Shown one piece after another: positions 28,866 through 31,749 of a DNA stretch of 64,000 nucleotides. The notes under the pieces are model-generated. The model was given only the letters and a program-made list of their open reading frames with translations, was not told the origin of the DNA and made no database searches. The stretch is from Chromatiales bacterium (GTDB lineage Bacteria > Pseudomonadota > Gammaproteobacteria > Steroidobacterales > GCA-2729495). The stretch lies in the NCBI GenBank assembly GCA_002729875.1, contig PBZD01000024.1, positions 1 to 64,000 of the forward strand. Direction: 5' to 3'. Both the position numbers and the translations under genes were made by a program. Each line of letters begins with the position of its first letter. Position 1 is the first letter of the stretch.

Positions 28866-28961
28866 CTTATGTTAAAAAAGTGCCAACACAATTTTTGACT
28901 TGAAAAGTGAGAGCTGGATCAAGGACATTATCCATGCTCTCGGTTAATTTGGACACTCGTT

Positions 28962-29072
28962 ACAGATGCGCCCGCAACAATAAAAGTCTCGATTATCGAG
29001 CTAGGTGTGGGCGCATTTGTACCGTACAATTTGCGCCGCTGTACAAGCCCCGTTCCGGGGCTTGTATTATTT
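28962..29072 (+). ncRNA. Candidate structured small RNA or structured 3' UTR of pntB
   Basis: ACAGATGCGCCC (28962-28973) pairs with GGGCGCATTTGT (29009-29020) over 12 bp with one G-U. Inside lies CTCG-ATTAT-CGAG. A single-stranded linker then leads to a strong terminator at 29042-29066. Stem, linker and terminator within 110 bases is the build of many small RNAs. A TTGACT at 28895-28900 has no good -10 partner, so it may equally be the tail of the pntAB mRNA. It matches no RNA family that I know. Confidence 0.35.
29042..29072 (+). terminator. Rho-independent terminator
   Basis: TACAAGCCCC and GGGGCTTGTA form a perfect 10-bp stem around GTTCC, followed by TTATTT. This is the best terminator on the plus strand between pntB and priA and ends either the pntAB transcript or the candidate small RNA upstream. 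Confidence 0.75.
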
Positions 29073-29300
29073 CAGGACACAAAACATCGCTCTCTCAGGG
29101 CCCTGAGGGTTGCGGTTCCTTATCAAAACTTTTGTACTCCCGACATGGGCTGGTTAGTACCTTGTGCTAACCCCAAATCGATCGGCAGTCAGCAGCGCCA
29201 TAAATCAACTGCTCAAAACATATCCCGATCTGCTATAAAACGACTAACCGATCCATCCATTAGCATTTGTTCTTAAAATTCTTCCGGCATATGACGCAAC

Positions 29301-29507
29301 TTATACACAAGGATTCAATAGCCACATGACCTTAGCATCTTTTTACCTTGCTGCAGTTCAATAATGAACTCTAACTATATGTATTATTTACATTATTACT
29401 ATATCGCTTATTTTTTAATCAGAATGAATCGCCTGAATGCACAATGCGATGTCCAGCCCGGTTCAGGCGCATTATCCACAATTTTATCCACAGCTATTGT
29501 GGAAAAC
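29301..29507. other. DnaA-box cluster with AT-rich segment (origin-like or priA control region)
   Basis: Three exact matches to TTATNCACA lie on the plus strand: 29301-29309 (TTATACACA), 29472-29480 and 29484-29492 (both TTATCCACA, three bases apart). One-mismatch copies occur at 29384-29392 (TTATTTACA) and, on the minus strand, 29499-29507. Between the first and the pair lies an AT-rich stretch with 11 G or C in 60 bases (29361-29420). Exact matches are expected about twice by chance in the whole 64 kb, so three in under 200 bases is not chance. The cluster ends 13 bases before the chosen priA start. Confidence 0.6.
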
Positions 29508-29520
29508 CCGGTTTAACGGC

Positions 29521-31749
29521 GTGGCCGAACAAATTTTGCGTATTGGTCTGGCTACCCCCTTGCTGCGGTTGTTCGATTATCGTTGTCCGGATCCAAAAAC
29601 AGGGGACGAGCCGCATCCCCCGGGCCGCGGCAAACGCATCATCGTGCCATTTGGAAAAAAAACCCGTATCGGAGTCATCGTCGCCACGACCGACACCTCA
29701 TCAGTTCCGGACGCGAAACTCAGACAAGCAATTAGCGTCATCGATGCCGAGCCATTACTCGATGAGCAACTTATGGCCTTGCTCGAATGGGCGGCTAATT
29801 ACTACCATCATGCGCCGGGTGAAGTTATTGCTGCGGCACTGCCCAAACTCCTGCGTAGAGGCGACGCGGTTAACACGACTGAGATGATCTGGCGTACAAC
29901 CGAATCCGGCCGGACTGTGGCCTTTGAAACCCTGGCCAAACGAGCGCCGGTGCAGGCCCGCATTATCGAACTGGTTAGGGCCAGAGAAGAGGGTGCTAAT
30001 GCAACCGTACTGTCAGCGGCCGGCAAAACGTGGCGAACCGCCGCCGCTAAACTCGTTAACAAAACTCTGCTTGAAGTTAGCGAACGAAATGTCAGGCCCT
30101 CTGCCCGTGCCCATCACAACATCGAGGCACCGCTGGCGGCAACCGATGACCAACAGCAGGCTATCGAGGCCATCACTGCGGCAAATGGTTATGCCGCTTT
30201 CCTGCTTGAGGGTGTAACGGGCAGCGGCAAGACTGAAGTCTATCTGCGCTGCATCGAACACCAACTCCAACGAAGTCGACAAAGCCTGTTGCTGGTCCCC
30301 GAGATCGGCCTGACACCACAACTCGTTGACCGTTTCCAGCGGCGCCTTGCCAGTAGCATCGCGGTGCTGCATTCCGGCCTGAACGACACCGAACGACTCA
30401 TGGCCTGGCGAATGGCGCGCAACGGCGATGCCGGCGTTGTAATTGGAACCCGCTCGGCAATCTTCACCCCGCTAGCAAATCCCGGGCTTATCATCATTGA
30501 TGAAGAACACGATGCATCGCTGAAGCAGCAGGACGGCTTCCGCTACTCGGCCCGCGATCTGGCGGTCTGGCGTGCACGCCAATGCAACATACCGATCGTG
30601 CTCGGCTCAGCAACCCCGTCATTCGAGTCACTCGAAAATGCTCATGCAAAACGTTACACGAAATTAAGCCTGCCGAACCGTCCCGGCAACGCACGCCAAC
30701 CCGCAGTCCGATTGATCGACTTGCGAACACAGCCCTGCAAGGACGGCCTGACCGAACCCTTGCGTGCAGCGATCACCCGCCACCTGGCCGATGACGGCCA
30801 GGTGCTGTTATATCTGAATCGTCGTGGCTTCGCACCGAGCATGATGTGTACCAGTTGCGGCCAACTGGCTGAATGCCGTCGCTGTGATGCTCGCCTGGTA
30901 TTTCACCAACGCCGTGGTCGGCTGATTTGTCACCACTGTGGCGCCGAGCACGCCGTAGCGCATGAATGCGCAGCCTGTCACGCACCGGACCTGCTGCCGG
31001 TGGGTCAGGGTACCGAACGGCTCGAACAGGCATTGCAGGAATTGTACGCTCCGCACCGCATCATCCGTATTGATCGTGACACTACACGACGCAAGGGCGA
31101 AATCGAACGCCGCCTCGAACTGGTTCGCAGCGGCACGGCACGACTCCTGCTCGGCACCCAGATGCTGACCAAGGGTCATGATTTTCCGAATGTGACGATG
31201 GTCGGCATCATCGATGCTGACCAGGGATTATTCGGCACCGATTTTCGCAGCAGTGAACGACTTGCCCAGTCATTCATCCAGGTCGCCGGCCGCGCGGGCC
31301 GGGGTGACCGACCGGGCGAGGTATATATCCAGACACTGTTTCCCGAACATCCGCTACTGATAACCCTGATCAAAGAAGGCTACGACCACTTCGCCCGCCA
31401 GGCCCTGGACGAACGCAAGTCAGCCGGCTGGCCACCTTATACCTGCCTGGCGCTAACCCGCGCCGAAGCGCCCCAGCGACAAACTGCTTTCACCTTCCTG
31501 AATGAGGCACGTGACCTGGCAGCACGGTTCATCAACAGCGGTGAGTTCGCCGACATCAGGTGGCTGGGCCCGGCATCAGCCCCAATGGAACGCCGCGCCG
31601 GACGCTACCGGGGGCAACTGCTGATCCAGGCTGACACCCGGAGTCAACTGCAACATTTCCTGGGGGCGTGGCGACCGGCTCTCGACGAACTTAAATCAGC
31701 ACGTAAAACCAGGTGGTCGGTCGATATTGACCCGACTGAATTGTTTTAA
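29521..31749 (+). CDS. priA: Primosomal protein N', replication restart helicase
   Basis: A 742-residue superfamily 2 helicase that recognises stalled or collapsed forks and reloads the replisome through DnaT/DnaB. The start is taken as GTG 29521, giving MAEQILRIGLATPLLRLFDY, which matches the 3'-end-binding N-terminus of PriA proteins; the frame is open to 29437 but the extra 28 codons are encoded by the DnaA boxes. Motifs: Walker A GVTGSGKTEVY, IIIDEEHDAS, and the zinc-binding cysteines CTSCGQLAECRRCDA and CHHCGAEHAVAHECAACH. argS follows after a 206-base gap. Confidence 0.95.
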   Translation: MAEQILRIGLATPLLRLFDYRCPDPKTGDEPHPPGRGKRIIVPFGKKTRIGVIVATTDTSSVPDAKLRQAISVIDAEPLLDEQLMALLEWAANYYHHAPGEVIAAALPKLLRRGDAVNTTEMIWRTTESGRTVAFETLAKRAPVQARIIELVRAREEGANATVLSAAGKTWRTAAAKLVNKTLLEVSERNVRPSARAHHNIEAPLAATDDQQQAIEAITAANGYAAFLLEGVTGSGKTEVYLRCIEHQLQRSRQSLLLVPEIGLTPQLVDRFQRRLASSIAVLHSGLNDTERLMAWRMARNGDAGVVIGTRSAIFTPLANPGLIIIDEEHDASLKQQDGFRYSARDLAVWRARQCNIPIVLGSATPSFESLENAHAKRYTKLSLPNRPGNARQPAVRLIDLRTQPCKDGLTEPLRAAITRHLADDGQVLLYLNRRGFAPSMMCTSCGQLAECRRCDARLVFHQRRGRLICHHCGAEHAVAHECAACHAPDLLPVGQGTERLEQALQELYAPHRIIRIDRDTTRRKGEIERRLELVRSGTARLLLGTQMLTKGHDFPNVTMVGIIDADQGLFGTDFRSSERLAQSFIQVAGRAGRGDRPGEVYIQTLFPEHPLLITLIKEGYDHFARQALDERKSAGWPPYTCLALTRAEAPQRQTAFTFLNEARDLAARFINSGEFADIRWLGPASAPMERRAGRYRGQLLIQADTRSQLQHFLGAWRPALDELKSARKTRWSVDIDPTELF

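Follow-up and report, generated by a model that had tools for sequence, protein, structure and literature searches.

A putative DARS2-like DnaA-box element upstream of priA, with a paralogue at rpmE, in a gammaproteobacterial family

The question raised by this locus is what a group of DnaA boxes is doing immediately upstream of priA, the gene for the replication restart helicase. The stretch of DNA analysed here, which we call the window, is 64 kb long and forms the first half of contig C14 of a draft genome. The boxes are in a 655-bp non-coding gap (28866..29520), as the earlier note on this DNA had it, which runs from the stop of pntB (28865) to the GTG start of priA (29521) as judged by ORF calls and Pfam matches to PNTB and PriA domains. 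The priA gene itself (29521..31749, + strand) is supported by both Pfam and NCBIfam, and the nearest relative, L009, has an ATG where this gene has its GTG start.

Three exact TTATNCACA boxes start at 29301, 29472 and 29484, each on the + strand, and are where they had been reported to be. The first of these, which we call outer box A (TTATACACA, 29301..29309), is 183 bp before box II. The other two, both reading TTATCCACA, are boxes III (29472..29480) and II (29484..29492) of a DARS-like core and are 12 bp apart. The core is completed by box I (TTTTCCACA, one mismatch, 29498..29506), which is on the - strand and thus opposed to II and III, is 14 bp from box II, and ends 15 bp before the priA start; it had been placed at 29499, one base off. 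The second one-mismatch box that had been listed, TTATTTACA at 29384..29392 on the + strand, is present as described. We considered it as part of the element and rejected it, as it falls inside an AT-rich zone and is missing at the equivalent position in L009, and it is probably a chance match. The four GATC sites that had been counted in the gap are at 28917, 29180, 29227 and 29250, and there is none inside the element (29301-29506).

The window has 5 exact boxes with 1.42 expected, and 1 of 100 shuffles reached 5, a modestly significant excess. The grouping is more telling: three exact boxes within 200 bp occurred in none of 200 Markov simulations of the window, and the triple beside priA is not a product of chance. 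Across the 2.48-Mb draft genome there are 59 exact boxes as against 44 for the reversed control, and in the list inspected for that genome only two places have three exact boxes in about 200 bp, one upstream of priA and the other upstream of rpmE.

The earlier note had raised the possibility that the cluster is oriC, with the AT-rich segment beside the boxes as its unwinding element. However the neighbours of the element are pntB and priA, and neither dnaA nor mnmG adjoins it. The dnaA gene is at 99,260 of contig C14, 70 kb from the priA cluster, and cumulative GC skew over this 124-kb contig falls through the window and turns at about 99 kb, by dnaA. The oriC reading is refuted because both the skew minimum and dnaA are 70 kb away, and we give almost no credence to a chromosomal origin or second origin at the priA cluster. 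The boxes do adjoin an AT-rich segment, but the dnaA-dnaN gap has a box and a stretch with 8 G or C in 60, which is more AT-rich than the segment near priA, and the element is without GATC. The true oriC region is likely to be around dnaA (L005:338-525 and L004:18867-18875, G000:C14 about 98,867 to 100,525). Genes named from translations and sequence as mnmE, yidC, rnpA and rpmH are 5' of dnaA; there are boxes in both the rpmH-dnaA and dnaA-dnaN gaps, and the stretch with 8 of 60 G or C is just before dnaN. The note was right to suspect an origin nearby, with the origin on the same contig and not at the cluster.

With regard to what the cluster might be, the closest resemblance is to the E. 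coli DARS sequences. Three boxes with equal spacing at DARS1 and DARS2, with box I opposed, constitute the common DARS core (PMC5742627), and the release of ADP has been ascribed to a head-to-head pair of DnaA molecules (PMC8682772). The window has the same three-box spacing, with box I opposed to II and III: taking box II as zero, DARS1, DARS2 and the window all have boxes at -12 (+), 0 (+) and +14 (-). The window triad has 1 mismatch in 24, and no unrelated triad in 124 kb does better than 8.

The element is present upstream of priA in all 30 genomes of the family set, which includes the window and came from a family search covering nine genera. The plan at priA is a + box, then 178-183 bp on a second + box, then 14 bp on an opposed box; a weaker + box precedes the middle one by 12 bp. 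The middle box is TTATCCACA in most of these elements, and in single species single boxes have degenerated. The second triple in the draft genome, at L007:16496-16710 (G000:C97) upstream of rpmE, has the same plan and a core with 1 mismatch. The rpmE loci of the family carry this plan in 30 of 30 cases, with a spacing of 188-194 bp. Since priA and rpmE both carry the plan, each family genome that was read for both loci has two paralogous elements.

The distribution extends well beyond the family. The core pattern, allowing up to 3 mismatches, was run on 369 class genomes and matched 312 of them, while the reversed control gave next to nothing (one match seen); because pair I-II is palindromic, some of the matched places are counted twice, once per strand. 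We also read about 700 bp upstream of priA in 79 non-family genomes, ordered by PriA similarity, and found a core with at most 5 mismatches in 55, every one in the same orientation; the remaining genomes have at least 9 mismatches, and no control, reversed or shuffled, scored lower than 7. The resulting 70% is not a class average, as the sample favours species with a PriA resembling the query. A scan of alternative spacings gave a peak only at 12/14. Conservation of the boxes upstream of priA, which had been put forward as a check on a regulatory role, thus holds throughout the family set and in 55 of the 79 class genomes. Examples beside priA are found in Stenotrophomonas, Dyella, Rhodanobacter, Luteibacter, Cycloclasticus, Crenothrix, Duganella and Collimonas. 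The element is not universal, as the rpmE-priA intergenic region of E. coli is without it.

Among 118 exact-core loci in named genomes, the neighbour is priA in 44 and rpmE in 21, which leaves 53 in other places, although some of the 53 are near priA or rpmE but in the other orientation or more than 900 bp away. In 35 of the 53 at least one of the two arm features, outer box and IHF-like site, is kept at the usual place. The distance from core to gene ranges from 9 to more than 400 bp, with the internal spacing fixed. Exact cores were also seen upstream of genes named from translations as an ExbD/TolR-like gene (three betaproteobacterial loci, L105, L163 and L165) and an ABC ATPase gene (two loci, L109 and L152).

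The arm between outer box and core is AT-rich, and the figure of 11 G or C in 60 given for 29361..29420 was confirmed. From the positioned sites in relatives we read this segment as a zone for IHF and Fis, and not as the unwinding element for which it had been taken. In the 55 class elements an exact co-oriented outer box is found at -178 to -201 in 49, mostly at -188 to -192, and an exact opposed box upstream in none. Taking the best site within -135 to -95, the IHF consensus in one orientation with at most one mismatch is found in 45 of the 55, as against about 3 in shuffles, and nearly all fall at -109 to -113; IHF-like sites with up to two mismatches cluster at -110/-111. A Fis-like site at -78 is present with at most one mismatch in 18 of the 30 family priA elements, and is weaker elsewhere. 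The window copy has a good Fis-like site (GCTTATTTTTTAATC, a single mismatch to GNTYAAWWWTTRANC, 29406..29420, -78 from box II), while its IHF-like site is degenerate: there is no match with one mismatch or fewer, and the candidate at 29372..29384 on the - strand, placed by position from the relatives, has 3 mismatches to YAANNNNYTGATW. The genome encodes IHF-beta (ihfB) and an HU-like protein. A further protein, of 107 aa, we take to be Fis because of its sequence and an HTH_8 match; no ihfA was found in the assembly, which is 78% complete.

The arm is where comparison with the E. coli elements becomes more complicated. DARS2, upstream of mutH, has the three-box orientations and the 12/14-bp pitch of the window core, and its IHF sites are on the side of box III, about as far out as the IHF-like sites of the new elements. 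However its near-consensus IHF sites are at -99 and -83, so that the IHF-like site of the new elements is about 11 bp farther out. DARS2 has Fis sites, and the priA elements have Fis-like sites too, but in the new elements the Fis-like site is between IHF and core whereas in DARS2 it is beyond IHF. The outer box is co-oriented at about -190 in the new elements, while DARS2 has an opposed box at -197 and no co-oriented exact one. DARS1, between bioD and uvrB, has the same core and pitch and, like the priA element, is upstream of a DNA-maintenance gene. It has a co-oriented outer box at -209 with one mismatch, a weak counterpart of box A, but unlike the new elements no IHF consensus was found in its arm; the minimal regulatory region of DARS1 is about 50 bp (PMC5742627). 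Numbered from its inner + box (0), E. coli datA has an outer + box at -162 and, at -97, an exact IHF site oriented as in the new elements; an opposed box follows the inner one. Order and orientation are thus shared with the new elements, with the outer box at -162 as against -183 in the window, but the opposed pair of datA is 12 bp apart and not 14, and there is no box III at -12.

Both E. coli DARS sequences lie far from oriC, and in this respect also the family differs from them. Five family genomes (G003, G019, G020, G022 and G023) have dnaA on the same contig as the two elements, and in each of them dnaA lies between priA and rpmE, about 65-102 kb from either. The exception is G007, with rpmE at 40 kb and priA at 590 kb from dnaA. 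The two elements thus tend to flank oriC in scorable family genomes. In near-complete class genomes the picture is mixed: G161, G164 and G281 have a core each side of dnaA within 76-171 kb, and G058, G073, G119 and G397 have at least one core far from dnaA. G119 has no core beside priA; its 2.9-Mb chromosome has two cores, one on each arm and both about 1.0 Mb from dnaA.

We think it reasonably probable that 29301-29506 is a DARS2-like DnaA-reactivating element, at which DnaA, IHF and Fis would form a nucleoprotein complex. DnaA would bind boxes I (29498, -), II (29484, +) and III (29472, +), with the molecules on I and II head to head, and a bend that IHF and Fis impose on the AT-rich arm would carry outer box A (29301) to the core. 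ADP-DnaA in this complex would next lose its ADP and take up ATP, giving more initiation-competent DnaA. The protein binding, bending, nucleotide exchange and timing are what we infer from the pitch and orientation of the DARS1/2 core, its conservation, the rpmE paralogue and the unrelated-gene contexts, together with an arm on the side of box III that has the IHF-like site at -110/-111 and the Fis-like site at -78, and the IHF-beta and Fis-like protein encoded. Against this reading are outer box A, with no exact co-oriented counterpart in DARS2 and a weak one in DARS1, the order of outer box, IHF site and inner box, which recalls datA, the position of the family copies near oriC, the degenerate IHF-like site of the window and the weakness of the Fis-like site outside the family priA elements.

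The resemblance to datA invites the opposite function, with IHF joining ATP-DnaA on box A and the core so that ATP is hydrolysed, and oriC-proximal copies inactivating DnaA soon after they are duplicated. The datA-like layout of the arm and the 65-102 kb distances from oriC in most scorable family genomes suit this idea, but the 14-bp opposed pair and the conserved third box of the DARS core do not, and we consider it unlikely. It is rather less to be expected that the element is an operator at which box-bound DnaA represses or activates priA (and rpmE), so coupling restart capacity to initiation. This was the other proposal of the earlier note, and the boxes it pointed to are indeed conserved, with box I almost at the priA start and all 55 class elements sharing their direction toward priA. 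However an operator for priA would have a fixed position and be specific to that gene, whereas the distance to the gene varies over the range given above with internal spacing constant, and the same element is found beside rpmE and unrelated genes. A promoter scan gave one weak match, at chance level, and no convincing promoter. Because of the fixed geometry, the variable gene distance and the several gene contexts, a DnaA nucleoprotein element of DARS type seems a better reading than a priA operator. There is a small chance that the element is a non-catalytic, high-affinity sink for DnaA near oriC. Strong boxes near the origin would serve for this, and a titration role of origin-proximal boxes has been argued for E. 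coli (PMC12371093), but a sink of this kind would work without a set distance between boxes, without an opposed pair and without IHF-like sites at a given position.

A broader proposal, which we offer very tentatively, is that a DARS core with a datA-like IHF arm and a distant outer box is the old and common gammaproteobacterial form, often as oriC-flanking pairs, and that E. coli DARS1, DARS2 and datA are later separated derivatives. Pairs near oriC might then reset DnaA just after initiation and not in mid-cycle.

Conservation of DARS2 has been described for seven E. coli-proximal species (PMC8682772), and a review states that many proteobacteria have sequences like DARS1/2 (PMC10380432). 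As far as our literature search showed, the return of DnaA to the ATP form is largely untested outside the E. coli group. That search found nothing relevant on DnaA boxes with priA or rpmE, and no report of the priA and rpmE loci, the composite geometry, the outer box at about 190 bp or the oriC-flanking pair; the primary DARS paper, reportedly Fujimitsu 2009, was outside it. The element may be a widespread replication-timing switch in Gammaproteobacteria. It is fixed and positioned in many culturable genera, such as Rhodanobacter, Dyella and Collimonas, and is open there to deletion, relocation and assay, and DARS-type elements paired next to the origin make a natural comparison with those of E. 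coli.

Two class-wide matches may be added. In an unrelated family, three DARS-like cores follow one another on one contig at intervals of about 324 bp (G271:C206:51221-51899). The locus L108 is on a contig labelled Candidatus Planktophila lacus that carries a gammaproteobacterial-looking rpmE with the element, and this contig is probably misbinned.
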